Below, one piece after another: positions 4,544 through 63,954 of a stretch of DNA of 64,000 bases. The stretch is taken from contig BSYQ01000007.1 of the NCBI GenBank assembly GCA_030272585.1, positions 5,708,001 through 5,772,000 on the forward strand, given 5' to 3'. Position 1 is the first letter of the stretch. Each line of letters starts with the position of its first letter. Source of the DNA: Bryopsis sp. KO-2023. Lineage: Eukaryota > Chlorophyta > Ulvophyceae > Bryopsidales > Bryopsidaceae. A program made the position numbers and the translations under genes. The notes below the pieces were generated by a model. That model did not search any database. It was given only the letters and a program-made list of their open reading frames with translations, and was not told the DNA's origin.

Positions 4544-9632
<5,089 letters not shown>

Positions 9633-11353: not shown

Positions 11354-14300
11354 ATGACTAAGAGGATCACATGTCAGAGCTCATCATTTCTGCTGGTGGT
11401 GGCAGTGGTTGGGCTGACCTTTCTGAATTTCACACTGTATGATCATCACCTCCAAGCCATTGTCGCAAGGAGGGGCACTCCTTTGATTCTGAAGGGCCCA
11501 TCTGTGAGGACGGGTAAGCTTGGAGCATTGGACTCCCACTTTTCTAACACGGGGAGCAAGGATATTCTTCCGTGCAAGGATATTATTGCAAGGAAAATCA
11601 TACAAACGGCTCTCAATGGAACATTGATATGCCCAGATTCACAAGCTTACAATGAGACTGTGAAAGTGTTCAACTCCCGGCTGAAAATCAGTCCCGGGGT
11701 TATCATTCGCCCAAAGCAAGAAGAGGACATCTTGGTAGCAATGGAAATGGCTGCAAAATACGGGATGGTTGTGACTGTGAAGAATGGGGGTCACAATCCT
11801 GCTGGGTTTTCTTTGAATGAGGGTGGCTTAGTGATTGACATGAAGTTCATGGATCGAATCTGGAAAGAGGATAGCTCCGGTGATTTGATCAGGTCTCAAG
11901 GTGGGGCGAAATGGCGAGAAGTGTACAAGCTAATGGATGGAATTGGACGGTCGATTGTCGGAGGGGGCTGCCCAACAGTGGGGGTGGCCGGGCTCGCACT
12001 GGGGGGTGGCATTGGTTGGATGTCTCGAAGCAGGGGTTTGGTTTCGGATAACATGCTTCAGGCCAGGATCGTTTTCCCCAATGCGACGATTGGGGTGATT
12101 GATGATCAAAACCACCCTGACTTGATGTGGGCGTTGCGAGGGGCTGGGGGAAGCAATTTTGGGGTGGTGACCGAGGTTTTGCTGCAAACATATCCGGCCC
12201 AAGAGATTTACTTTGCAGGGCTGTTCTGCTTCAAGAGGGCTCCTCACACTTTTCGGAACATCATTGAGTTGCTTCGTGACATGATCAATGGGAAAGTCAA
12301 AGTGGATGATAGGCTGACAATGGACGTGCTCATGAATCGGGTGCCACCCAAAGCAAACCAAGGCGACCAGCCCCAGGTAAGATTGCGTAAGGACTGCTTT
12401 TGCGCGATGCACTGGGGGAACAGCAGCTGGAATCAATGTGGATGGGTGATTAGCCTATCAACGTTGGGCTTCTATTTGTTTGAAACGAGGGGTTGTGCTT
12501 CCAGTAGGTTGAGATGTGTTGGGCAGGCTTTTTCGATGGACCCATCGACGAGGCACTATCCACCAGCAAGCAGCTGCTGGATCGACTAGCAGACTTGATC
12601 ACAGAACAAGATGCTTGCCAGTAAGGTTCACATAAACCCACATGCTGTCCAGATTTTGATTCAGTGAACGGAATTCCATGCCCTGATCCTTGATAGTGTT
12701 TCAATTTTGAACCTGGATATATTCCAAGGAGCTTTTTTTGGCCAACATATTTCTGGCTGAAACTTTTTCGTAGCTGGAGTTTATTCGTACGGTTTTGATA
12801 GGTGTCTGTCAAAGTGACGGGGTGGTTAGCTTCGAAAGGGCACAATTCCCACGGCTGATGTGTGTCTGGTGTAGAATGACGAAAAATGAATGCAAGGAAC
12901 AAGCAGTGACATCTTTTGCTATGAGGCGCAGCAAAGAAATGGTTCGTAGTGGCCAGCCCTGGCTGCAAAAGCACAATTTTTCATCATGGGAGAATAATTT
13001 TGGGGGAGATTATCTGGACATCACTTGGAAGAGCACAATGTCTGAGGAATTCACGGAGCAAATGGTCGATGCGACAGTCAAATACTTCAGGTCAGTGCGT
13101 TGTCAAATATTTCAGGTCAAGTCATAGCTTGTGGGGACCTTAGAATCACTCTATTGGTGGTGGTGTGGATGGAATGCACCTTGATATTGCTGCACTTTTG
13201 CATCTCAGTGAAACAATGGTCTGACATGCGTGCATGTTTAGCGATATCCCTGTTGTCCAGAACGATTATGGAGCAAAGATGACCATAGAAGTGTTATTCG
13301 AGCACTTGGGGGGTGCCATGAGGAAAAACAGAAATTCAATATCTGCATGGAAGCACGGAAAAGCTGGAATCATGGCTTCCATTCAAGGATACATGTGGGA
13401 CCCATTTTCATTCACGGAACGAGGGGGCGATCATCATGCAGTTGTGCTGACTTACTTGAAAAACTGGACGGAGTCTTACTATGCAGCCATGTCGCTGTCT
13501 GGTCAAGGGTCCTATGGGAATTACGCTGATGCTGATCTCAGCGATTGGGAGGAAAAGTACTATGGCCGGGAAAATTATGACCGATTGAAACGAACGAAAG
13601 GTAAGATTCCTGGTGCGACAGTGTTTCGATCTGCACAGAGAGTGTATGTTGAAGGTGGGGCCCAAGAGGTCGTGTTACCGCATTTCAAACAGGGGCTGCA
13701 CGATTCCAAAGGGAGTGAGTCGATCCTAAGTCATGCACACGAGAGTTTCACAAAGGAATCAGCCGTTTCGGTTACCCGTTCAGCTCATAACACAACGTCT
13801 AAGAAGGGAGCCGAGTCTGACATGAGGGATCGAAACGACACCAAAGAGTTCCCAACCGATGTGGATGTTTCTGCAAAGGATTCATCCAAGGAGGGTAGCG
13901 CTCAGATCACAAATATGGCCAGTTTGAATGCAAGCTCCGTGTCATTGGAGTCCAATATGAGTCGAGAATGTCCACAGGAGCTGCTGGATTCGATGGTACC
14001 GATTTTACCAGAGGAAATTAGTCATGTGGATCAAGCGGCAGGCCATGATGGATCTCGATTAGATGTCAGGTGGAAAGAAGAATCTAGAAGTCTTTTGATG
14101 GGCAAGAATCGGTCGACCACTGGTGCCAAAAATATATTGCTGACTGGTGGTTCTGGGGGGCTTGGTTGGTCCGCAACACTCCATTTGGCCAAGCTGGGGT
14201 TCAATGTGCTCTACACTTCCCGAACTGAAGAGGGATGTCATACGGCCTCAACTAAAATGCAAGTTGTCAGAGAAACCTTGAAATTGAGAGGAAAAATGGC

Positions 14301-15117
14301 CTGTGTGCCGCTAGCTTTGGATGATTTCGGTAGCATTCGAACCTTTGCCACTAGGCTGAGCGATTCAAGTGAGTTCCAGACATGGGGAAGTTTGTTCGAT
14401 GTGGTGACCTTGAATGTGGGGATGCTTGGAGAATTTGGAGTGGCCTCCAAGGCGGGAAATGTGTCCAACTCTCTGGCCATCAATCATTTGGGCCATTTTG
14501 TATTGATGCATGAAATGCTGAACAAGAATTTGATCGAGCCAGAGAACGGAAAAGTGGTCGTTTTGGGGTCCTGCGCAATGGACAGTTCAAATGAAAGGGA
14601 TGTCGAAAGCTTGTTGAGAGTACCAGCAGTCGCATATCAGAATTCGGACCCGAAAGCATCGTTTCTGGTGTCGCCCCCGTATCTTACCTACGCAGCAGCC
14701 AAGGCTATAAATTACATGTTTGCAAACGAGCTGTCCCAGAGATTGGCCTCCGTAGGGAGTGGAATCATGGTGGGCATGGCTGCACCTGCTGGAACCTCCC
14801 TGACGGAGCTCACGAAAAAAACTGGTGAAGAATTTCTGAAGGTCTCTAAGTTTATCAGCACCGCGGAGGGAGCCCTGGCAACCGTATTTTTAGCATCAGA
14901 TGGGTTGACCGATGGCCGAGTTTGGGTTCCTGGGAAAGTTAGTGTTGTGTCTGGATGCAGGATTGATGATGGTATTTCTAGGATTGAGTTTGTGCAATCG
15001 GAAAAACTCCGTTGTCGTGTTTGGGATGCTAGTTTAGGAATGGCTGGGTTGGCATCCTCCACTGGTGCTGGGGATAGTCCAGTGGTCAATGCATTTGTTT
15101 CGCCATGTAAGTCATGA
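11354..15117 (+). CDS. Fusion: berberine-bridge FAD oxidase + short-chain dehydrogenase
   Basis: Four exons (11354-12376, 12508-12620, 12875-13090, 13242-15117) give 1075 residues. Residues 11-29 form a signal anchor or signal peptide. About 110-350 is an FAD-binding domain of the PCMH/BBE type: NGGHNPAGFS carries the His (147) and GGGCPTVG the Cys (206), which hold FAD bicovalently in berberine-bridge enzymes; GLALGGGIGW follows. The BBE C-terminal motif lies near 541-585 (YGNYADADLSDW, then YYGRENYDRLKRTK and VFRSAQRV). A Ser/Asp/Lys-rich linker follows, then an SDR domain from about 745: TGGSGGLG (from 752) for the nucleotide, LNVGML in place of NAG, and the YAAAK catalytic pair (Tyr 934). 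BBE motif and SDR lie in one unbroken exon, so the fusion is not a splicing guess. Predicted: an oxidation by the flavin domain coupled to an NAD(P)H-dependent carbonyl/alcohol step, at a membrane or in the secretory path. The substrate is unknown. Confidence 0.88.
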
Positions 15118-16104
15118 GAGGGAGGTCAAACATAGAGCAGATGTCACTCCATCCAAAAAAAGATCAACAGAAAGGTCATTTGGGGGAAAGGGAAGGGAAA
15201 AGCTATATGTCTGTTTTCTGTTTTCACATTAATTTTTTGACTCATCTTCTGCACTCTGCCGAAGAGTATTTTTTGGACGGGACTTTTGTTTTTTGGCGAT
15301 GGTTGAAAGAAGACAATGGTTGAAACGATACAGTGTAAACAAACAGGTGTTACTCGAAAAGTTCTCTCTACACTTCCCCCATTTTTTTCACAAGTCTATC
15401 GAAAAAAGATACATCGAGATTGGAGGCTTCCTTTTGTCGGCCAGCACACACACACAAATACCGCGGGGTGAAAGTAGATACCTAATTCATTGAAAGAAAT
15501 TAACCTAATGATCCACAAATGCTGCATCGCTTCATAAATGCAGAAATTCAAAAACTTGAAAAGGAAACATAAGGCAGAATGCAAACGTCATTTTTTCCAC
15601 TCACAAAAACTAACACCCCCCCTGCTTGTCCAGGGTTTCGATGGGTGCACCCAAAACATTTGGGTTTTTACAAAAAATTAGTTGGATTTGAGAATCATGC
15701 ATTTGTTTAGTAAAGATCTACTAAGATGGCCCCTCAGTTAATTCGCAAGTGTGCTTGGCAACATCCACACAAAAAACCATCCCAAGAACACTATGAGCCA
15801 ATGCACAATGCCAACACTGCAAAGCAACACACCACACTCAGTTCTTGAGAAATCCCCAAGCACAGTTCACACGATGGTTCAGCCATCGTTAACAAAAAAC
15901 TGCAACAAAATATGAAGACAATGCTTACACAGTGTTATTCTTGGCAGGAAATAGAGCAGTCAGGATTAGTCAAAGAGTTAGTTAGTCAAGCTACCAAGGA
16001 AACAGGTTCTTCCCCTCTCACACTGCTCAGGATCTTGACTGAACCCAAATATCATGCATGAAGTTTTCTCCGCTATGTCTGAATCCATAATGTCAGCTAA
16101 GCCC
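15118..16104. other. Intergenic, convergent 3' flanks
   Basis: This gap separates the 3' end of the oxidase fusion (+) from the 3' end of the nucleoredoxin-like gene (-). I see no coding exon. Composition changes from T/G-rich to A/C-rich along it, as expected between converging genes in this window. Confidence 0.35.
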
Positions 16105-17116
16105 TTACTTGACATCGACGGTTGTCTCCAGCCAAGGAAATTGGTCCCCTTGTGGATCGTGGATGACTGTATCTCGTGCATTTTTGGCCAGCAACTCTCC
16201 GTCCGGTCTGATCATGGATAGGCATGGAAATTCACGAACCCCCAAAGTTTTCACGACCTCCTCTTGTTTTCCGAAGGGAACCGACAGCCATGGCATACCT
16301 TCGAATTCCCTCTGATTAACACCAAAAAAGCACATTATTCAGGTGCATTTCAGCATTTATTTCTCTGATCCCGGACACACTTAATCAAGTTGAACCACAC
16401 CCCCCAATTCTGCCCTTCCCTTCTTTCTCAACATATGAAGCTATTTTGGATGGTGAAATGAAGGGATATGATTTCAACAGCAGTCTCCTTTTCCAACATT
16501 CCATCGTTTCGCTCCAATTCGCCGTCCCACCTTGAATCCGTCTGGATCGTTGCTCAACCCCACATGGACCACTTCGAACAGTTCATTGTTAGTCTTCAGC
16601 GACTGATACGCTTCCTTCAGCGTGCAAGCGAACCCTTCGTCGGACGAACTCCTGCAAGTCCCAGAACCCCTTCACTGTGGCTGTTCCCTACGGTCTTTGT
16701 GTGTAATGGGAAGTAAACAACACAGGCTTCTTTTCCTCGAAGCACTCGGACAAACCGTCGACGTCGGGGATCTATTCCGAGCACTGTTGCGCGCGCTCTA
16801 TAACGGGTGACAATATACGTGCTGATGCGCGAAACTGACGGCTGCTCGGAGATCCAAACGAATAGATCGACGCAGGCGTTTTCCATCGAAGCTGGGTTTC
16901 AAAATACACGAAATCCCACCGCGCGACGTTCTAAGACGTCGAAGCGCTGGCCAGTGAATGCGGAACGTCTCCCTACCCGTCTTTTGTGAAGAATACGCCA
17001 ACGACGTTATCCTTAAGCGCAGTCGCTGTTGAGACGGTTGTCACTTCCCCTTCGCCAGCGTTTCTCCAGAGGCTGGGACCCAAAAGCTGACGGACATCCA
17101 CCATCGGGGAAGCCAT
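16105..17116 (-). CDS. Nucleoredoxin/tryparedoxin-like protein lacking CxxC
   Basis: Minus-strand exons: 17116-16977, 16771-16692, 16651-16531 and 16311-16105. Exon 1 starts MASPMVDVRQLLGPSLW and continues as nucleoredoxin domains do (VSTATALKDNVVGVFF). Later exons give LKEAYQSLKTNNELFEVVHVG, FEGMPWLSVPFG, LGVREFPCLSMIRPDGEL and NARDTVIHDPQGDQFPW, all typical of the thioredoxin-fold nucleoredoxin/tryparedoxin family. Where family members carry WCPPC after the first strand, this protein reads LFTSHYTQRP, so the redox cysteines appear to be missing. The last two junctions keep phase, although one intron would be only 40 bases. The junction between exon 1 and exon 2 does not keep phase as read, so a small exon or a different donor has been missed there. 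Family membership is fairly sure; redox activity is doubtful. Confidence 0.68.
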
Positions 17117-18028
17117 AGATTCAACCAACACGTTGTGGTGACGGGGCCGAAAGCGAGCGTGTCTTGGGCGGCGTCAGTTTTTACTCTCAAGGAGGTGGAA
17201 AAGATGGGGAAAACAATGGATCCGTGAGCGTTTCAGACTCCGGCCACATTTGTACAAGGATTTTTGAGAGTCGGACGCAGAACTCGCACGATTCGATTTT
17301 GGGGTGTTCAAGACGACGTCTGTCTCCCAGGCTCGACTGGCAACGCGGGCGCATGCGCCCCCACCCCTGTCGGAACTTTCCTTGATTTGACCGTCCAGGG
17401 GTGGCAAGGAGAAGCGTCAGAGGGGGGGGGGCTGGGCGTCTGACTGCTCAATCAAAAGCTGAGCTTGCCTCTCTCGATAAAGGAGCGAGGCCGAGGTGCA
17501 ACTTATGCCAGTTTCGCCGGCACAGGGTCGGGGGCAGGGGTTGGATGCGATTGAATCAGGAACGAAACTGCCGTCAATAGCTAGCATTCATACGAGCGAA
17601 TCGACGCAGGGATACAGCGAGGACTGGTGGGTGTGTAGGAGTGACAAAAGAGTCTCGCAATCGTAGTTGGGTGCCTGGCGTTGCAGGGTTGACTTCTTCG
17701 CCCTCATGCAGTGGCGGCGGTGGGGGCAGTAGGTGAATCGTGTTTGATCGATCACGAGCTCAGCTCGTTTAGTTCCTCGAGAATTTCAAACGGAATTGCA
17801 ACTCGCCTCCATGCCTAACCTGTTTGAGCCGTCACGTTTGGGCAGCTCCTGACACGGACGAGTTTTCCCCCTGCCAATTGATTGGTCGCTTTCTCCCCCT
17901 CGACAATGATCTGCCGCGCACACGATCTCTCCACCAAACGGAAAAATGTTGTTGGAAACCCTCGGTCTGTACATTTCTGAGTCACAACCCCACCTTTTCT
18001 GCAGGTTCTTCTCGCCTCATTTGCTGTA
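17117..18028. promoter_or_regulatory. Divergent promoter region between nucleoredoxin-like gene and receptor kinase
   Basis: About 0.9 kb lies between the start codons of two genes pointing away from each other. It is richer in G+C than most flanks here and holds no exon I can support. I infer that it contains promoters for both genes; no TATA box or other defined element is evident. Confidence 0.4.
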
Positions 18029-21000
18029 ATGGGTGCCCTACATGGCCTAGCAATTGTGTACCTCCTCCTTGTGATTCTTCGACCGGCGAATGCCATCCTC
18101 CCTGGAACACATACCAAACCCCACAAACTGGTGGCAATTTCCAACTGCGCCGAATTGAAAAGAGCCCTCGAGCAAACATGGCCCCCCACAGACATCCTCG
18201 TTCCACACGACATTTTTTGCAGCAGCAAAGCCTGGGGACCTCCAGTGGTGATCAAAACGGCAAGGGCAATTCTGGGCATCAGAACGCAGCCTCACCCAGT
18301 CCCCAACATCGATTTTGGCGATGTCCATGAAGGGATCGTTGTGGCACCCACAGCCAAGTTGAAATTTGAAACTCTGAGCCTGGTGAGCACGGTGCCTCAA
18401 GACACAAGTCAGCAGAATTTGGAGGGAACTCAGCCACTCCCTGCCCTGAAGGTCGAGCGGAACGGTACCGTGGATTTTGTTGGTGTTTGGATGTGTTGCC
18501 AGAATTGCATGATGGGACCGACACAGGTGTGACCTGCCACTTTTGTCAAACCCAACACTGCTTGTTAGGAAAGCACCCTGCTTCCCAATGCTCTGTAATG
18601 CACTGTCCACTTGGCGTCGCAAACCCTCCGCATTGAGATAGAATTGCCGATTGAAGTGGCAATCTGTGAACCAAGAAATGATAGTAGTTGTTGGGAACTT
18701 GATACGGAATCGGGGGTCCTTTGGCCATCGGCTGCATGAAGCATTTGACCTGAACATAATACTTACATTTGAAACTTAGAACAAGAAGAAAAACGAGTGA
18801 GGGATGGATTTATCATTCAGTGGAAATGCGGAGTCTGGCTGTTCTTGCAAAGTGTTTCATATCTGAAATACAGGTGTACATCGACCAGCGACCGAATGAG
18901 GAGCAGGACAGAATCAACCTGGGAGTGGACGGCATAGAGGCCCTGGAGGTCGGCGATTTCAGTCCTGAAGATACCCAGAGCGAAGGTGCCTATATCAAGT
19001 GGCTGGAAGGAGAGTTTGCTTCGGGCGGAATCTACCACATGTGTGCAACCATGCTTTCCTGCAATGTCGGCACCGGCATGCACTCTGCCTTCATGTATTT
19101 CATGGATAACTCGATCGAAATGTGTCGATCCAACCCGACTGTGGTCATCCTCAGCCAAGATCCAAGCAAGGGGTCCCACATTCCCATGCTTGTGGCCGTT
19201 TTGGTGATATCTATTTCCACGGCGGTGTGTTTAGTGATGGGGACTGTGGTGGCTCTGCTGGTGAAATCAAGGCGTAAAATGGCGGGTCGATTCCATGGGT
19301 TACGAGGCATTGACAGTCACCGTGCGAGTGTCAGACCTTTGGAAAGCGATGGGGGAGCCCATGAAAATATCGACGCGGTTGAGGCAGATCAGGCAGATGT
19401 CGAACCTGATGATGATGTCGTGGAGATCAGTGGGAATGCCCTATCTTTCAATGAAGTGCGAGTGGATCTGACCAAACTTCTGGGAAGAGGGGGATTCAGC
19501 AGCGTGTACGAAGGCACTTACCAGGTTTGCGTTCTCCAGCATTTTGGGTCCAATCCTTACATGCCACCCACCCATTTGGTCATCATTCATTTCAAACCTT
19601 TCACGTCTATTCTTGATCAGATTCTTGCGAAACCTCTTTTTTTTCCAAAAACAAAAGGGTAGGATTGCAGCCATCAAGATAGTGGAGCACAGTCAGCGGG
19701 TGATGGCCCACGCCACAGGGGAATTGGCCGAAGTCAAACTCCACGAACACTTGGCGCATCCTTACATTGTGATGACCTACTGTAGCAAAGTAGTGCCGAT
19801 CGACGCGGTGTGCCTGAACAGCAGTTTGCGAAGCTCACCGACCATCAGTGTAGGGCCAGAGGGATCATCAAGTAATGGCAAAGCCCCCGAAAACCAAAGC
19901 GTCCCTGAAGAAAACTCCAGCCAAGGTGGGAGTGGATGCGGTTTCTGTTTTTTCCTGATGAAGTGTTTTACTTGGTTGGAAAAAGTAAGTTCAGAGCAGG
20001 TCAATTGTAGACAAGGAGGAATGGATAAAGTTTGCTTTACGACATTTTTTTGTCCATCTACATGTATTTTTCTGGGTCGTTTATTTATTGGGGGTGGTTG
20101 GAGTAACGCCCCCCTTCCTATCTGCAGATCAAGAAAGAAAAATGATTTTTCGATTCTTGATTCTTGATTTTTTTTTTCTCAGGTCGAGAGGAGGCTATGT
20201 GCACTCTGATCGTCATGGAGTACTGTGAGAAGGGCAATCTGTTTGAGGCCATCCATAAAGGGGAGTTTTTCCGAAGTGGTTTGAAAGGGGTTCCAGATTT
20301 GAATGTCATTCTACGGTCTGCCTTGGATGTGGCTTCAGCCATGCGCTACTTGCATGCCCAAGGAATCGTACATGGAGATTTGAAACCTGAAAATGTTCTG
20401 AGGAAGGAGCTTGCTGAAGATGAGCGAGGCTTCATATGCAAGGTATTTTCCTCAACACTTTTTTTTTTATCCGGTCAAATTTTTGAATAGTTTTTTTCTT
20501 CCCAATTTGGACATATTTTGGTCCTTTTCTTGGAGGTTTCCATTTTAAAAAAATATCCATAGAGTGAAGAAATGATGTTAGAAAATTCATGCATCAATAT
20601 TTTCGTGACAGCAGTTGTGCTGTGAATGATAATGCGTAGATCAGTGACTTTGGATTGAGCCGAACAGTCCCCATAAACACCTTCCTTCAGACAGCCACCT
20701 TGGGAACGATCACCCACATGCCTCCAGAACTTCTTCGTGACGGAATCCTGGGCCCCGCCGCCGATGTGTACAGTTTCGGAATAATGCTCTGGGAGATGCT
20801 GTCTGGGAATATTCCTTTCAAAGGGCAGGGTCACCATGACATAATCCTGGGGGTGGTGGCAGGCAGTAGGCCGGCCATGCCAAACAATGTCCCGAGAGGA
20901 ATGTCAGCGTTGATCGAGGATTGCTGGCGGGAGAATCACCTCAGAAGGCCCACATTTGTGCATGTCATAGGGCGGCTCCAAGGTAATTTGCTACTCAAAT

Positions 21001-37929: not shown

Positions 37930-38536
37930 TAGGGATGGGACATTACGCCTTACGCCAGAATTTACGCGTAATTTTACGCGTAATTACGCGAAATTACGCG
38001 GGGGGTAGCGTAACCTTACGAGGTTACGTTTCCTGCGTAAACTTTACGCGTAATTACGCGAACTGCAAACCCCCAAGCGTAAAAAAATTGTCCCATTTTT
38101 CGCATTATTTCATTTTTATTCCGTTTAAAGTGAATCGTGTCAAAAGTTTTGATCACTTTTTCTTTTTCTGTGTTCCCAAAACACACTCTTTGAGATTGAT
38201 ACAATGTTTTCGGATTCTAATCACATTTCATATAAAGATATTCATGTTAAGATTATTTATAAATGCAATTTAGGAGCATTGACATTTCAGAATCCTTCCG
38301 AGGAGCGCCCATTTCACCTTATAACGTGTAAGAATGTGTATGTAAGCTCTCCTTTGCAAAAAATATTCAAGAAGCACCCAGGGAAAGGGCTCATTACGCA
38401 ACTTTTCATAGCTATTACGCGAAATTTGCACCTCATCATGCCTTGTTACGTGAACTGTTACGCCATTACGCGTATTACGTTACGTATTACGCAATTACTT
38501 ACGCCAAATTCTCTTGGCGTAATTTTCCCATCCCTA
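37930..38536. mobile_element. Non-autonomous hAT-type miniature transposon (MITE), 607 bp
   Basis: The element begins TAGGGATGGGACATTACGCC and ends with the inverted form, GGCGTAATTTTCCCATCCCTA minus one base, giving terminal inverted repeats of about 20 bp. It is flanked by a perfect 8-bp target duplication, CACAGAAC (37922-37929 and 38537-38544). An 8-bp duplication and TAGGGATG-type ends are the marks of the hAT superfamily. Both subterminal regions are packed with TTACGCG/CGCGTAA units in both orientations, which in hAT elements are typical transposase-binding sites. The middle (38080-38380) is A/T-rich and has no transposase. The perfect duplication suggests a fairly recent insertion. 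It sits between two divergent genes, some 170 bp upstream of the membrane-protein start and 335 bp upstream of the kinase start. Confidence 0.93.
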
Positions 38537-38871
38537 CACAGAACGTAGAACGCACACGTACTGGCCTGACGGGATGCGCAGCCAGATCACAGAAACCGCT
38601 GGCGTCGTCCGAGGGGAGAATTTGAAAACAAAAGAACATGGTCAGGGGTGTCGCTAGTATTCTAGCACCAGACCGCACCCACTGCTTTGGTTCAACACTC
38701 CGCTCAAGAAACCCCTACTAGTTTTAAGAATACTAGAGGGTCTTCCGTTGTGACGTCCCTGTATTCGTCCATTGGTCGTAACATCGTTGCGTTTTGTAAA
38801 GAACCTAAAGCGTTGGCTGTAGCAAAGAAGCGCATCCCGCAGGGAAGAAACGAGAAAAGACGCACACGTCG

Positions 38872-40809
38872 ATGGTGTCAAAGACGGACGAAGTTTTGTA
38901 CGAAGACGAAGAGCTTTCCTTTCGCAATGGGGACTCGCTTAACGGTTATCAAGTGAACGGTCGCGCAGGCGTTGGAACTTTCTGCGTCGTGTTCGAATCA
39001 CAAGGACGAGAAAGACCTGTTGCAATAAAACTTGCGAAGCAGAGATACACTTCAGAGAAAGACGTCCGCGCGATCGACACCGAAGAGCGTGTCGTCGCGT
39101 TCCTCAACCAAACTTACCCGGAAGCGCCAATAATCAACCAGATTGAGACTTTCGAGCACGAAGGCCGTCGATGTATGGTGATGGAACGTGCACACGGGAC
39201 GCTCTGGGACACCGTAGGGCTGGACTGGCCCACACGAAAGAAGCTGCTGTTCGAGATCGCCGTCGGGCTGGCGGTCTTGGAAGATGCCGGGGTAATTCAC
39301 GCCGATCTTAAGCCCTGTAACGTCCTTTTGGTCGACGATAGGCCAAAACTCGCGGACTTCAACTGCTCGAAGTGGTTCGAGTCGTCAGGGCGGTACTATG
39401 GGGAGAACGGAACTCTGCGTTACATGGCTCCAGAAACGCTCTTGGACGGCGTTTTGGACACCAGCTCAGATGTGTGGGCGTATGGCTGCGTTGCGGCTGC
39501 GGTGCTTTGGGGTGACGACGTCTTTCCACAAAACACCCATGTGGACGTCGTCGGGGCAATCGTCGATCTCTTGGGACAGCCGCCATTCGAGTCCAGCCTC
39601 CGCACGTCGTTTCTCGAGCTCAGTCGAGACGACACTCGTGCGTATGGATCGGGTTACAGTTGGAGCTTGGGCGAATTGGTTTCGTCCAGCGCGGTGGACG
39701 AGTGCGATGGAGAACACGTGCTTGACCTTCTTTCCAAGGTGACGCCCTTGTTCTTGTGGGCGTTATGACCCACGAGGGCTTCCAATCAAAACCTCGTCAT
39801 CCAGCGTTGTCGTCCTGTAATTGTCAGAGAAAAACATAGTCGTCATCTACAGCTTGAGACGGATCAACATGCATAGTATTCCAGAGGATTTTGATATGCA
39901 GTGACAGATGCAAATTATTGTGGGTCCGAAAATTGCTGTTGGGTGAGCATCAAACCAAATCAAAATTTCAGAACTGAATTGAGTGTACATCATATTATCC
40001 CCCCCAACTAGATTCACCTTGCCACACTTATATGTTTGATCGGCAGTTATGCAATGCAGGTGCTTCAATGGAGTCCAGAAAACCGGCTGTCCCCCAAGAA
40101 GCTTCTGGAGCATCCACTCTTCGCAGGGATGTCTACTGACGTCCAATTCTCGAACGAAACCATGAAGCAAAACCGTGCACAAGCTTTCGAATCCCTGCAG
40201 AGCTGTTGCCAATCAGAAACCCACAGGTGGGACATCGAGAAAAGCTGCGAATGGGACAGTGTGGCCGATTCCAGCCAGTGCTGGGGACTGGACTGGGGGT
40301 GGAATTGTGCTGCTGACACTGGTGGTCAGAGCGACTGGGGGTATTTTCCACAAGACACGCCCGCTGAATTGGAAAGGAGTGAATTGAGCGAGGTGGGTTG
40401 GGGAGAGGGGGGCTCTGTAAATAATGAACCATGTGCTCCTTGGGGTGGGCCAGAGGATTGGTCCAATTGGGACGATTTTGAAAATTATGCCAGTGGGTGG
40501 AAATTTGATGCGGATGACATAGCAACCCCAGATGAAGAAGAGCTGTCCGAGGGGGGCCCTGCTGTGGACACCAACTCGAACAGATTGAATGAAGTACTGG
40601 GCTCTGTTGAAAATGACTGTGAAATTGAGAATTATGTTGAGCAAGGCCCGGATGACTGTGGAATCGAAAATTATGTTGAGCAAGGTCCGGAAGAGGAAAG
40701 GGCCGTAGCGGGTTGTGAAAATGTTGAGAGAAGGGCCACGATTGTTGATAATTGGTGTTTTTTTTGGGATTGTTTTTTTTCCAGGTTTTTTTGGGGAAAA
40801 AAAGCTTGA
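38872..40809 (+). CDS. Atypical protein kinase (DYRK/PRP4-like) with Trp-rich acidic tail
   Basis: Two exons (38872-39738 and 40060-40809) encode 538 residues. The kinase domain spans about 22-310: glycine loop GRAGVGTFCVVFES, VAIK (Lys 53), IHADLKPCNVLL (Asp 145), LADFNCSKW (Asp 162), YMAPE and DVWAYGC, ending LLSKVLQWSPENRLSPKKLLEHPLF. The HADLKP loop, the closing motif and the overall order resemble DYRK/CLK/PRP4-kinase relatives. DFG is replaced by DFN, with an odd Cys-Ser-Lys-Trp activation start. The tail (about 330-538) is acidic and rich in Trp and Gly (WGLDWGWN, DWGYFPQD, WGGPEDWSNWDDF) and carries a near-perfect tandem repeat of IENYVEQGP. No membrane segment is seen. The substrate is unknown. 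The last 30 residues or so may be altered by a small intron ending TTTTTTTTCCAG near 40782. Confidence 0.82.
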
Positions 40810-51452: not shown

Positions 51453-52596
51453 CAGCAATTCAACCGTTTCATCTCTGATTGTGGAGGTTGTTTTGTCGCT
51501 GGGTAATAGACGCATACCTTGCGACAGAATTTCATAAATTCAATCCCCGTCTTTTGAGTGTTGGTAGGCATGGGAGGCCTGGAACACTGCCAGTGAACCT
51601 GTCCCTGTGGAATCGCATTGCTGTTTTTGTTGTGTATCGTTTTCTCACACTTGATTTTTCTTTCCTGGTTTGTGGTGTGGTCAGGTGATGCATTAAAGAA
51701 GCAAATTCATGGCGGACACAAATCCTCAAGGAAGAGAAACTCAAGATAAAAGGGATCAGCAAAACCAGGGCAAGATATTTTATTATCAGCTTTCAGTGCA
51801 CGGTTCTTTTCTTCTGGGAAATTAAATGGGAAGGTTGGCTTGTGGCAAAGAGCCACAATCATACAGGGATATTGTCGATCGAGTGCAAGCGTTGTTTGTA
51901 CACGCAAACACAACATACCATGCATTGAAAGAAGTTGTTTCAGAAAAATCATGAAATTGTTGCAAAGCAGCACATGCAAGCAGTCATGAAAGATGGCTTT
52001 GCACAGACAAAGCCTGTATTCCATGTCTTCTACTCCACCCCCTCTTGCACATCGATGTCAAAATACTGAATGGCACCTCTAGCTGAATGCCAATAGAGCG
52101 AACAATCCTGCAGGCTCCGTATGAGTTCGCAACCAATTTTAAAACATGTTGAAGAGCGTTCAGGGGCCCGCGTACTCGCTTTGCGCCGCCTTGTTTGATT
52201 CTTGGCACCAAAGGGAGTGAAGGGTGAATAGTTGATTGGATTTTTTTGTGGGGGTATTTTATCTTTTTTCCTTTGGGATATTTTTTGGGAGTTTCCAGTG
52301 GATACAATGATCTGCTGGACGGCAGATTTTGCAGATTACCTCTGACGGGGATGAGGAGTTCCGAGTTTTCGGTAGACTGACTTTCATTTATTTTGTTTTT
52401 TTTCACATCTTATTTATACATCTGATACCTGTGGCGGGAGAGCTGGAAAAAAAACTTTTCACAGCAAAGAGACAGAAACAGAGAAAAAGAAAGATAAAAT
52501 TTTGGCTGGAAAAGGGAAGAGAAAAAGATCTCACTTGAGGGCAGTTGCTGATTGGAATTGGGTTGATCAGAAGGACGCTGAGTTGGAATCACTGAT
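51453..52596. other. Intergenic flank left of the Helitron fragment
   Basis: No gene can be supported with confidence. A minus-strand open frame (52406-51984) includes an exon-like stretch GPLNALQHVLKLVANSYGAC near 52100, without a recognisable family or splice partners. The rest is ordinary flank and T/A-rich sequence. Confidence 0.3.
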
Positions 52597-53301
52597 GTGC
52601 TTCAGACGGGCGTAAAATGCCCTTATTTGGAAATACTCTGGAATCAAAGCTTCCCAGTTGGTGGATCTGCAGAAAGGGTGGATATTCTTGTGGGGGTAAT
52701 AGTGTTACGATGTATGACTCATGGGCCGTGTGGAATTGGATGTGTGAGAGCTCACGGCTCCGTAGGGGGAAGTTCTCAATGTGATAAAAACTACCCTGAA
52801 CCCTATTGCGATGAAACAACTTGGGATGAAGAGAATATATATCCCACGTATCGTCGCCGATCTCCACAAAATGGTGGGCGTGTTCATAGACACAATGGAA
52901 GGAATATTGACGACCGATGGGTTGTGCCTTACAATGCATATCTTTGCCTCCGCTTCAATGCACATATTAATGTGGAAGCGTGTGCTTCGACATTGTCTAC
53001 AAAATATTTGTATAAATATATACACAAGGGGGAAGATAGAGCGATGGTGGAAGTGAGAAGGGATGAAAGAAATGGCCGTCCAATTGATGAGATTGAAGAA
53101 TATCAAGACTTTCGATCAATTGGTGCAAGTGAAGCATGTTGGCGAATTTTCAGATTTGATATTAGTGATCGATATCCAGCCGTCACAGCCCTGAGATTTC
53201 ATCTTGAGGATCGACAAATGGTATATTTTGAAGAAGGCCAAGAGAGAGATATTGCGCAAAGAAGTAAAAATTATACGGCATTAGCGATGTCAATGAGGTA
53301 G
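52597..53301 (+). mobile_element. Helitron Rep-domain fragment
   Basis: An unbroken frame encodes part of the Helitron replication initiator (Helitron_like_N). MTHGPCG, the YRRR motif after a CDKNYPEPY stretch, DDRWVVPYNAYLCLRFNAHINVEAC, KYLYKYIHKGEDRA and ASEACWRIFRFDI follow the family order closely, including the YxxKYxxK motif that contains the catalytic tyrosines. The upstream HUH histidines are not recognisable (the segment before MTHGPCG reads VDILVGVIVL), and there is no helicase part, so this is a truncated, non-autonomous copy or an old capture. About 140 bases downstream there is an 11-bp perfect hairpin (53439-53465) and then a second short stem ending near 53517, a plausible Helitron 3' end. 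The open frame suggests decay is recent or incomplete. Confidence 0.85.
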
Positions 53302-56039: not shown

Positions 56040-56753
56040 ATGTTCAATACAATAGGTTAATAAATGAGGAAGTGATTCTAGTTGATTTTTTTTTGGGGGG
56101 GGGAAGGGATTGACCAGAGAAGGGTATTTAAGGAGTGGGATGATCATGGGCGGAACAGTGTCTGGGGGTTCTGTCTATCCCTCGAGATATTAATGATCTG
56201 TTACTCCATGTTAAGAATTCAATCTTACAAGATTCATTCAGATATCAACATCCATCGAATCCATCGGTGTATGTTTGATGATCCCGAGTTATCAACTATT
56301 CATCTCCATATCTTCTGAGCAAATTATATTTACAAGTCAGTCCCCAACCTCACCTCTCCTCTCATCTTGTTTCAAACGCAAAAACTCTCAGCGGTTGGCA
56401 GTTTCGCAGAAAGGGCTTCGCTCCTCAGAAACCTTGGAGGGCTGTGCACGGCATATTAATAATCGCAATGTACCAGCAGCCCCAGCCATCCCTGTACAAT
56501 ACTGTGTTCGTTCGCAAGGAAGGATATTTTCGAATCGTAACTGACGCCTTTGTTCCTTCCTGTTGGTCGAATGTGCCGCATTTTTTTCCATAGATATTTG
56601 GAGTCGGGGATCGATACTGGGTGGATTTGAAAACCAAAGTTCAGGGAGAGAACTTGGGCTGTATATGCTCCGGCGTTTGAGAGTCTGTTTTGTACCCGCC
56701 CTCCCCCACTCTATTGGGACGCATAATTCTGCCATCGAGATACTCCCGTTTCG
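56040..56753. other. Intergenic between pyrophosphatase and APC4
   Basis: About 0.7 kb in tandem orientation. A canonical AATAAA lies at 56059-56064, some 20 bases after the pyrophosphatase stop, and may be its polyadenylation signal. The rest is presumed APC4 promoter. Confidence 0.4.
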
Positions 56754-59700
56754 ATGGAAAGCTCCGCTGTACATGGCGACAAGGCCATTCCGTCCCCAGT
56801 CCTCGTGGCGAGTTGGTCGCCCAAACATGAAATGCTTGCGGTGGCTTTCAGCAACAAACCGCTATCGCTGTATAGACTCAACTGGGAGCGTTTATGGACG
56901 GTGTCTCTGGATACGATCCCACATACTTCAAAAGTGACGGCCCTGTGCTGGGCTCCCAAGGGAAACGTCATTGCCGCTGGGATCGCGGACGGGACCGTTA
57001 TTCTTCTTAACGTCGAGGACGCATCGGTGGTTCGGAAATTCAAGCTGAACGAGAACGAACGGGGCGCGGAGGAAGGCGAGTCGAATCCGGAACGCGTCGT
57101 CGCGCTGGGTTTCGTTCAAGGTTTGGAATCGGGAAAGCAAAAGCTTGAGTCTGGATTCACGTCGCAAGGGATGGATTGGATTTCCAGTTTGCTGGACGGC
57201 CGACTCCAAAAACTGTTCGAGCCTTTGGCGAGCAAGGTCCCGACCAAACCGCTGACTGTGGACGAGGTGTATGCAAGGTATTACTAACGGTTTAGAGCTG
57301 ACTAATATAATCTGATTAGATAACAATAATAATAATATAATATCTTCTGGGAACTCTTACTACCCTCAGTACACTCTCGATTCCTCCGTTCAACCTTCCC
57401 AATACTGACGATTTTTGGAGCAGTGCCTGTACAGGGAAGGTGCATCCTGAAAAACATAAATAGATTATATATATCAAACATTAATAATGTTAAAAAATGA
57501 ATTATTGAAAGACTTGACCCTTTTGCCCCCAAAACTACATTCCTCAGATCCTCAGGAAAGCACATAGCTACATGTTGTTCAAAAAGGAAGGTGGCGATCA
57601 TGATTTCGTCCCGAACCTCTGAATTTCTGATCTCAGTGAAAATATTGAAAGTAGTTGCTGTTTTTTTTCTTTTTGCTGCATAGGTTTGATAAGAAACATG
57701 TTTCGCATCGTCGAATGTGGCCAGAAGACCCGAAGATGTTGTCTGTTCTGGTTGGGTCCAGCAAGAGGGGAAATATCACAATCAGCGCCTTCGGCTTGGT
57801 GGAAATTGCAAAGCTCGACACGAGTTACTTCACCCACCGTGGATCCACCGTCGAGACTTTCAAGGTTTCTTCCAAAGATAAATTCGATCTAGAAAAAAGA
57901 GCTGCAGATGTTGATCCATGTTTTTTTGGGAATTTTTTCTACCATGTCAAAAAACCTGACGCAGTTAAACTAAAATGGACCCAAGGATGCTTTCTGAAAA
58001 ATCATTGAGTGTTAAGTACTAATCTGAACGTGTTTTTCTGTTTGATTTATTTCCAATTCACGTGAAAAATTGCTCACATCAATATAATAAAAGTATAAAA
58101 GTAGAATTTGAGAATTTGAAGGCAGACATGGCTTCTGTAAGGAAGCTGAGTTATATAAAGAGACAAATCAAATTCAAAGTTTAAATTTTAAGTTTTATGT
58201 CTAATTTTTTCAGGTTGCAATAACACGAGATTTGTGCCGTTTGATTGTCATCCAATTGGTAAAAAGAAGAAGAAACGCAGACACAGGTATTCTTACATTT
58301 AGCTTGTAAATTCAAATTCATAATTTTATGTCGATTCTGTTGAATGTGGCAGAAGGGAGGCTTCTGTCTCCATGATTTTTTCCACTCTGTGTGAAAATTT
58401 GTTCATTTTTGGTTAAAGCGTGGGGTGAATTAAAGATATATAAGATAGAGAAGTTGAATAAACAGCATTACAGTTTTCTTGTTTTGTTTTGTTTTTTTGA
58501 AAAGGAGGGGCTGGAGAGAGAGAGTTTTCGTGATGGTTATCTTGGGTGTGTTTTGTTGGCTCAGTAGGTCATCTCATAGCTTACGTATTCGATTGCTCAG
58601 TAATCGGGGTACACAGCCAGGAAATCCGCCAACTCACTCAGAGAATGTCGAAGGTTTCGGCATTGCTCCAAGGTCAGAAAACAGTATTAGTCATCTTCTT
58701 GCTGCCACTTTGAAAATCGCACGTCATCAAATTCGGACCAACTTTCATTTCCCCTCTTCCCTGGAATTTTTTCTTTAAAAAAGTAGCTTTTTTGGTGCCA
58801 AACTCTGGATTTACTCAGGCACATCAAATCATACAAGAAAGCACATGATTTTATGGTGAATCGCCGAAAATAGAGAATAACAAACGAGAAAAGATGAAGC
58901 TGAAGTAACTTACTGAACATCATTTGAAGGAGCAAGAGTGGGATATCAATCTTTTTCTTAAAAAACAAGAAAGGAGGTTCAAAAAGCACATGTGAAATTT
59001 TTTTTTCTGACATCCCTCCGTCTTCGATTCACAGCGGCCGGAGACACTCTCAAAAAGGCAGACCAAGACTGGAGCCAGTCCTTCTCCAGTTTCCGATCGA
59101 AAATGCGACTGCTGTCATCGGGGCTGTCCCACGAAGACACAGTGGATACCTTGATTGTGTTTCTGGTTTCTGGCAGTCTCAGTGAATCAATGGAGTCCTT
59201 TTTTAAAGAAAATCTGACTGAGCATGGTCTCAAGAGGCTTGCGGATGAATTAGACCAATCGATTCAACTTCTGAATGAGCTCATGTTGGAGTTTCAAGTA
59301 AGTGGAAATCACCGTCAGTCTGGACAGCTTTTTTTTTTTCAGTACTGGATTTTTTAGTGATCAGAATTTTGTACTCCAAATGATTCTGGTTTCTTTTTAA
59401 TATGTGCTGCATCAAGTACCTGAGCCTATGCAGTCGATCGATTTCGAAATGAGTTGGGTTTTTTTACGTATCTCCATATCCTGGTCGGTCCTTGGCACTG
59501 TGGAAAACAAACGTGATGTTGAAAAAAAAAATTAATTAATTACTGAGGTTGGATGTGTTTTGTGTAGAATGCTGTGGAGCAATGCCTATTCATTATTGGG
59601 GAGCTCATTGGGTTGTCCCGAACATATGAACTGCTGGAATCTGGTTTGGGGATCTCGGTGAGCATCTATTTTTAGAATTATGCACATGCTGCATTCATGG

Positions 59701-62081: not shown

Positions 62082-63954
<1,873 letters not shown>

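Follow-up and report, generated by a model that had tools for sequence, protein, structure and literature searches.

A bicovalent-type flavin oxidase and a short-chain dehydrogenase predicted in one polypeptide of the green alga Bryopsis sp. KO-2023

Does one gene of the green alga Bryopsis sp. KO-2023 encode both a bicovalent-type flavin oxidase and a short-chain dehydrogenase/reductase (SDR), and if so, could the two halves act together? The question comes from a stretch of 64,000 nucleotides (assembly GCA_030272585.1, contig BSYQ01000007.1, positions 5,708,001 to 5,772,000; hereafter the window, in whose coordinates all positions are given), where a sequence-only reading had placed a single-chain fusion at 11354-15117 on the forward strand. 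Spliced from four exons (Table 1), this region gave a stop-free model of 1,075 residues. Pfam matches to the whole model placed FAD_binding_4 (PF01565) at residues 114-246 (E 2.3e-23), BBE (PF08031) at residues 541-583 (E 1.7e-10) and adh_short at residues 747-896 (E 3.3e-13), each above its cut-off (curated for the first two), with no fourth family at E up to 0.1. The three domains thus lie in one model at the coordinates first proposed. We consider it highly probable that the fusion is real in the DNA, an estimate that is what remains after subtracting two rival readings, separate genes and an assembly chimera. Each of the two families is itself known and normally occurs in a protein of its own; what is new here is their combination in one chain.

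The join between the two halves holds whatever splice model is chosen, because BBE and adh_short were both detected in a single unspliced frame (13228-15114). This frame is open from 13225 to 15117 and holds BBE, linker and SDR together, and the first in-frame stop is the final one. The last exon (13242-15117) measures 1,876 bases, in agreement with the earlier claim that BBE motif, linker and SDR share one exon and that splicing does not create the join. Splice borders were chosen as the consensus-like ones among 484 frame-keeping GT/AG combinations. The exon 2 acceptor is ambiguous, with 12508 and 12514 both in frame and the latter giving two residues fewer, and exon 3 starts with a stretch that was missing from all four prokaryotic relatives aligned.

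Two adjacent genes could nevertheless be mistaken for one if the flavoprotein transcript ended and the SDR transcript started within the linker, or if a splice parted them. The SDR could begin at an in-frame methionine, Met737 (14098), six codons before the domain. The base three positions before an ATG influences start context, T being weak; it is T at 14098, whereas the start at 11354 has A. The linker DNA (13648-14115, 468 bases) had no stop in the gene frame, compared with 5 to 9 in each other frame, and its codon use was coding-like. In a leave-one-out comparison it scored 0.115, versus 0.138, 0.091 and 0.100 for three other pieces of the gene, and it exceeded all 42 non-coding controls, which came from 14 overlapping stretches of flanking DNA read in three frames each (maximum 0.097). 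When the linker was shuffled by nucleotide, 6 of 5,000 shuffles reached the codon score and none of the 5,000 stayed open. Homopolymer runs of five or more were absent from the linker, compared with 9 and 7 of them in equally long pieces of flanking DNA. The sequence-only reading had pointed to a polyadenylation site between the domains as a feature that would part them; none of five polyadenylation-type motifs (AATAAA, ATTAAA, TGTAA, AATGAA and TTTGTA) occurred within the linker. We take the TGTAA that follows the stop codon of the whole gene (Table 1) to be a polyadenylation signal of the green-algal type.

Alternative splicing could likewise separate the halves, since a good donor-like site, GTAAG at 13601, lies within the BBE motif, and 30 of its 43 possible AG partners would shift the SDR to another reading frame. 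The other 13 leave the SDR in frame, and among them is 13783, the only partner with a pyrimidine-rich tract, so that the one such acceptor would preserve the fusion. Removal of 13601-13783 would possibly give a shorter, still fused isoform without the end of the BBE motif. After the tests of stops, codon score, polyadenylation motifs and alternative splicing, we judge a pair of separate genes improbable. The gene model is based on one sequence record only, and two genes might also have been joined through a sequencing or assembly error. Such a join, however, would have had to hit a coding-like stretch and keep the frame on both sides, and we regard it as extremely unlikely.

With the fusion preferred over these readings, the linker would be part of the translated chain. 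Its five N-x-S/T sequons were equalled in 29 of 20,000 residue shuffles, in a count made post hoc, after the sequence had been looked at. Elsewhere, residues 41-586 also contain five, a count matched in 646 of 5,000 shuffles; the single sequon of the SDR was matched in 4,692 of 5,000. A sequon-rich linker fits a translated, lumenal segment. In an AlphaFold model of exon 4, ten-residue blocks of the linker had a predicted local distance difference test (pLDDT) score of about 24-36; disorder of the linker is weakly supported by this, because the model was poor in its SDR portion too (26-64).

The flavin half carries the residues of a bicovalent-type site that the sequence-only reading had assigned to it. 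His147 lies in GGHNP and Cys206 in GGCPTVG, where PpBBE1 has GNCPTVG, and Cys206 aligned with the cysteine of PpBBE1 and of THCA synthase. The BBE motif, described earlier as complete, covers 42 of the 45 profile positions. In PpBBE1 the two covalent flavin links run through H111 and C172 (PMC6001459; this and the other papers named by PMC number are cited from extracts). Judged by residue only, flavin adenine dinucleotide (FAD) is predicted to be bound bicovalently through His147 and Cys206. Three residues after Cys206, Val209 occupies the gatekeeper position. In AtBBE-like 15, with Cys179 and a gatekeeper at 182, valine permits and leucine suppresses the reaction with O2 (PMC4513132). Because valine at this position goes with O2 reactivity, the flavin half is predicted to be an H2O2-forming oxidase, not a dehydrogenase.

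As to ancestry, the best matches of the flavin half point in two directions, with the Cys206 loop nearest the moss enzyme PpBBE1 and the whole half nearest bacterial enzymes. For the 45 residues around Cys206 (11939-12073, forward strand), the best match in the PDB was PpBBE1 (E 4.1e-9), followed by THCA synthase. For the whole half, the closest solved structures by sequence were 6-hydroxy-D-nicotine oxidase (E 2.3e-36) and EncM (E 4.5e-36). By tblastn, residues 43-585 matched plasmid-borne oxidases at 24.7-27.8% identity (25 records listed of 317). Among 102 aligned prokaryotic and viral-contig relatives, a set that counts one relative twice and is biased, because the search patterns behind it came from an alignment in which most proteins lack the Cys, His147 was kept in 101, with a gap in the remaining one, and Cys206 was found in none. 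Val209 was shared by 5 of the 102, the other 97 having Thr. In a search with the BBE family, two bacterial genomes were the only ones among 14 controls to give matches.

We then asked whether the second half has the features of an active SDR. TGGSGGLG at residue 752 and YAAAK at 934 represent the TGxxxGxG loop and the YxxxK pair that had been reported for it, and Asn865 in NHLGHF, Ser894, Tyr934 and Lys938 align with the catalytic residues of two Vibrio SDRs. NVGM is present where NNAG is expected and PAG where PG is expected. NNAG is also absent from the two aligned Vibrio SDRs, and we assume that these classical SDR motifs are common but not essential. With these altered motifs, activity may be reduced or changed. 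Assignment to the SDR class rests on profile, fold and catalytic residues. A structure model made from eight sequences had a pLDDT of 53.7 and a predicted template modelling score (pTM) of 0.60, and a Foldseek search of the PDB with this low-confidence model, whose input alignment was made with SDRs, recovered SDR structures (best E 5.2e-13). Of the 50 titles listed, all named dehydrogenases, reductases, oxidoreductases or FabG, except that of 2p68, which names no function, and a PHROG scan gave one FabG-like match. The best NCBIfam matches, PRK06197 (57.9 bits) and PRK06196 (54.5 bits), were far below their cut-offs of 268 and 414, and three of four PDB sequence matches were protochlorophyllide oxidoreductases. 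The changed NNAG and PG motifs and the low identity to known SDRs would suit a passenger domain without catalytic activity, which might sense nucleotides or help the chain to fold or oligomerise. The TGxxxGxG loop is intact, however, as are all four catalytic residues (Asn, Ser, Tyr and Lys), and we consider a passenger very improbable.

The sequence-only reading had also given the protein an N-terminal membrane anchor, and a hydrophobic stretch is indeed present at about residues 10-28 (hydropathy averages 2.06 across the 19 residues that start at position 10), which suggests a signal anchor. Past residue 40 the hydropathy maximum was 1.33. Because no second hydrophobic stretch lies between them, both domains would be on the same side of the membrane. 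A protein retained in the endoplasmic reticulum (ER) is more likely than a secreted one, since lumenal NADPH is known inside the ER and not outside the cell.

An initial proposal had been to look for matches that span both domains, and among the matches examined in plasmids, prokaryote genomes and viral contigs there were none. The full protein matched 317 plasmid records, none with one place covering more than 80% of it, a threshold that could miss a fused relative without the linker, which might cover about 76%. The top-ranked record covered 51% of the query, in the flavin half alone, as did the 25 listed of the 317 (46-51%). The SDR half alone matched 3 plasmid records; neither of the two inspected had a flavoprotein oxidase annotated within 4 kb on either side, and four plasmid matches to the flavin half had no SDR annotated within 4 kb. 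We also examined flavoprotein loci, comprising 80 of 580 confirmed genome loci, to which 10 actinobacterial, 5 viral and 4 plasmid ones were added. Their 102 frames in 99 loci correspond to 101 distinct frames in 98 loci (two entries, L065 and L114, cover one and the same stretch), and the SDR model matched none of these 101 prokaryotic and viral-contig frames.

Searches with exon 4 gave a similar picture. Among 6 genomes reached through the loci, 4 had a match, with five SDRs and one BBE part in a 737-residue frame. Matches were found in 17 of 194 genomes of a first phylum (E up to 1e-6; at most 6 candidates scored per genome) and in 12 of 398 genomes of a second (E up to 1e-8; at most 3). 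The 30 matches listed for both phyla (592 genomes) spanned query residues 255-609, covering the SDR and in a few cases also the end of the linker, in frames of 283-536 residues, and included no fusion. In a third phylum the flavin profile matched 74 of 198 genomes, with at least 17 open frames over 700 residues among the matches listed; an SDR was found in none of the 10 long frames examined of these 17, two of which were cut at an end. Viral contigs contained no relative of the exon 4 or SDR alignments, and five loci matching the flavin alignment, without fusion. A prokaryotic origin of the fusion was rejected, as no fused frame appeared among the matches examined in the plasmid, genome, locus and viral-contig searches. 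The sequence-only reading knew of no described enzyme with this domain order, and neither the prokaryotic searches nor the papers listed in searches of the open-access literature, none of which concerned a FAD_binding_4-BBE-SDR fusion, contradicted it, eukaryotic protein databases lying outside the scope of the search.

How might such a chain work? In the reading that we find most likely, the N-terminal anchor would keep the enzyme within the secretory pathway, its two domains facing the lumen. FAD, bound through His147 and Cys206, would take a hydride from an alcohol, and the reduced flavin would hand its electrons to O2, yielding a ketone or aldehyde together with H2O2. The linker, flexible and probably glycosylated, would keep the SDR near the flavin half, and the SDR would use NAD(P)H to reduce that carbonyl or a different one within the molecule. 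Hydride delivery from the opposite face would invert the alcohol centre irreversibly and consume one O2 and one NAD(P)H. By analogy, both domains may act on one substrate, possibly with epimerisation.

Several observations weigh against this proposal. A lumenal SDR requires lumenal NADPH, which is known in the ER and is limited outside it. The two SDR motifs are altered, prokaryotic SDR relatives are just about 25-34% identical, and no stereochemical or substrate signature could be read in the SDR sequence. The structure models are weak, both the SDR model described above and that of exon 4 (pLDDT 43.8, pTM 0.29). No second fusion was found in the prokaryotic, plasmid and viral searches, eukaryotes, in which relatives are likeliest, being outside their scope. 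Prokaryotes also showed no pattern of SDR and flavoprotein neighbours, with an SDR in the flank of 8 of 98 loci (3 of 84 with an earlier, weaker SDR model).

Given these points, we see about an even chance that the flavin and SDR halves act in sequence within one polypeptide. The more specific idea of a single-chain aerobic epimerase, inverting alcohols in the secretory lumen at the expense of O2 and NAD(P)H, is tentative and, in our estimate, rather unlikely. Epimerisation is chemically reasonable, because berkeleylactone may, according to a review, be epimerised jointly by BeklD, which is a bicovalent BBE-like oxidase, and the SDR BeklG (PMC11375781). The fusion could also be real while its halves catalyse two separate, non-epimerising steps of one pathway, so that joining them couples only expression and location. 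BBE-like oxidases carry out many natural-product reactions beyond simple alcohol oxidation (PMC11375781), and a linker of this length, should it indeed be flexible, need not make the two active sites face each other. No biosynthetic cluster was seen, however, among the ten other frames scanned in the window, and we hold two separate steps to be possible but doubtful.

In Pfam scans of these ten frames, a kinase, a WD40 protein and a ketol-acid reductoisomerase were above cut-off, a thioredoxin-like match and a second kinase match were below it, and five frames had no match. The first part of the ketol-acid reductoisomerase gene, which is of plant type (62552-63418, +), matched KARI_N above cut-off and has an N-terminal extension, probably a transit peptide. 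Only two solved sequences matched this frame at E up to 1e-5, one from rice and the other presumably the spinach enzyme, so that this one gene indicates a host of the green lineage. After the protein-kinase frame (38809-39768, +; E 2e-32) comes another, at 40012-40809, in which 39 bases are duplicated in tandem (40613-40691), and the WD40 protein (56727-57287, +; E 3.7e-20) is like anaphase-promoting complex subunit 4. Just downstream of the fusion gene lie opposite-strand frames (16105-17173, -), which presumably resemble a nucleoredoxin or thioredoxin-like protein; the one scanned gave a Thioredoxin_8 match below cut-off. The region 17981-20167 (+) may encode a receptor-like membrane protein in which a kinase domain begins; its Pkinase match was weak and below cut-off. 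The frame at 52582-53301 (+), without a Pfam match at E up to 0.01, resembles, we assume, a Helitron-type transposon protein. Repeats include about four tandem copies of a 45-base unit (8156-8338) and a short array of TTACGCGTAA units (37961-38000).

Table 1. Features of the predicted fusion gene, in window coordinates.
Feature	Position	Strand	Content or remark
Exon 1	11354..12376	+	Start codon, N-terminal hydrophobic stretch, FAD_binding_4 with His147, Cys206 and Val209
Exon 2	12508..12620	+	Part of the flavoprotein substrate domain; GT/AG borders
Exon 3	12875..13090	+	Part of the substrate domain
Exon 4, first part	13242..13647	+	End of the substrate domain and BBE motif (residues 541-583)
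Linker	13648..14115	+	156 residues, Ser/Glu/Asp-rich, probably disordered, five N-x-S/T sequons; same open frame
Exon 4, last part	14116..15117	+	SDR domain with Asn865, Ser894, Tyr934 and Lys938; stop codon
Candidate optional intron	13601..13783	+	GTAAG...CAG, 183 bases, in frame; from sequence only
TGTAA motif	15334..15338	+	217 bases after the gene stop

Among known systems, BeklD and BeklG of Penicillium show the same pairing, a bicovalent BBE-like oxidase with an SDR, for oxidation and then re-reduction (PMC11375781). They are, however, two separate fungal proteins whose joint mechanism is only suggested, whereas the predicted Bryopsis protein is one chain in a host of the green lineage. 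The mycobacterial decaprenylphosphoryl-ribose epimerase, DprE1 with DprE2 (the latter presumably an SDR), follows the same oxidise-reduce logic but consists of two proteins, and the flavin half here has a BBE domain. In that system the flavoprotein DprE1 oxidises and its partner DprE2 reduces the intermediate, with net epimerisation as the outcome (PMC4366402, PMC11127046). Orthology of the flavin half to DprE1 was rejected, at 21.4 bits against a model cut-off of 500. STORR of opium poppy, whose halves we take to be a P450 and an aldo-keto-type reductase, is likewise a one-chain fusion and, if our inference holds, shares stereochemical isomerisation with the Bryopsis protein, but it is built from other protein families. 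Its gene fusion yields a bi-modular protein that isomerises S- to R-reticuline (PMC9174169). A STORR-type fusion was rejected here, neither a P450 nor an aldo-keto reductase being among the Pfam matches at E up to 0.1.

The closest solved relatives of the flavin half, 6-hydroxy-D-nicotine oxidase and EncM, matched as chains of 459 and 464 residues without an SDR, and neither has Cys at the position of Cys206. PpBBE1 and other BBE-like enzymes combine FAD_binding_4 and BBE with His and Cys flavin links and a signal peptide (PMC6001459). PpBBE1 has the same domains and flavin links but is about 54 kDa, with no SDR in its Pfam description in the extract cited (PMC6001459). Nearest to the SDR half, at low similarity, are PRK06197/PRK06196-like SDRs and protochlorophyllide oxidoreductase, which are stand-alone proteins. 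Should the Bryopsis protein be an epimerase, the fusion might be an independent solution, from other families, to the problem solved by DprE1/DprE2 and by STORR, a view that we offer by analogy and consider speculative and on balance unlikely. Gene fusions point to enzymes that act together, and, if the proposal is true, an epimerising pair of BBE-like oxidase and SDR would become testable with one purified protein. It would also represent a redox pair with no need to release a reactive carbonyl, and a ready scaffold for the one-pot stereoinversion of alcohols.

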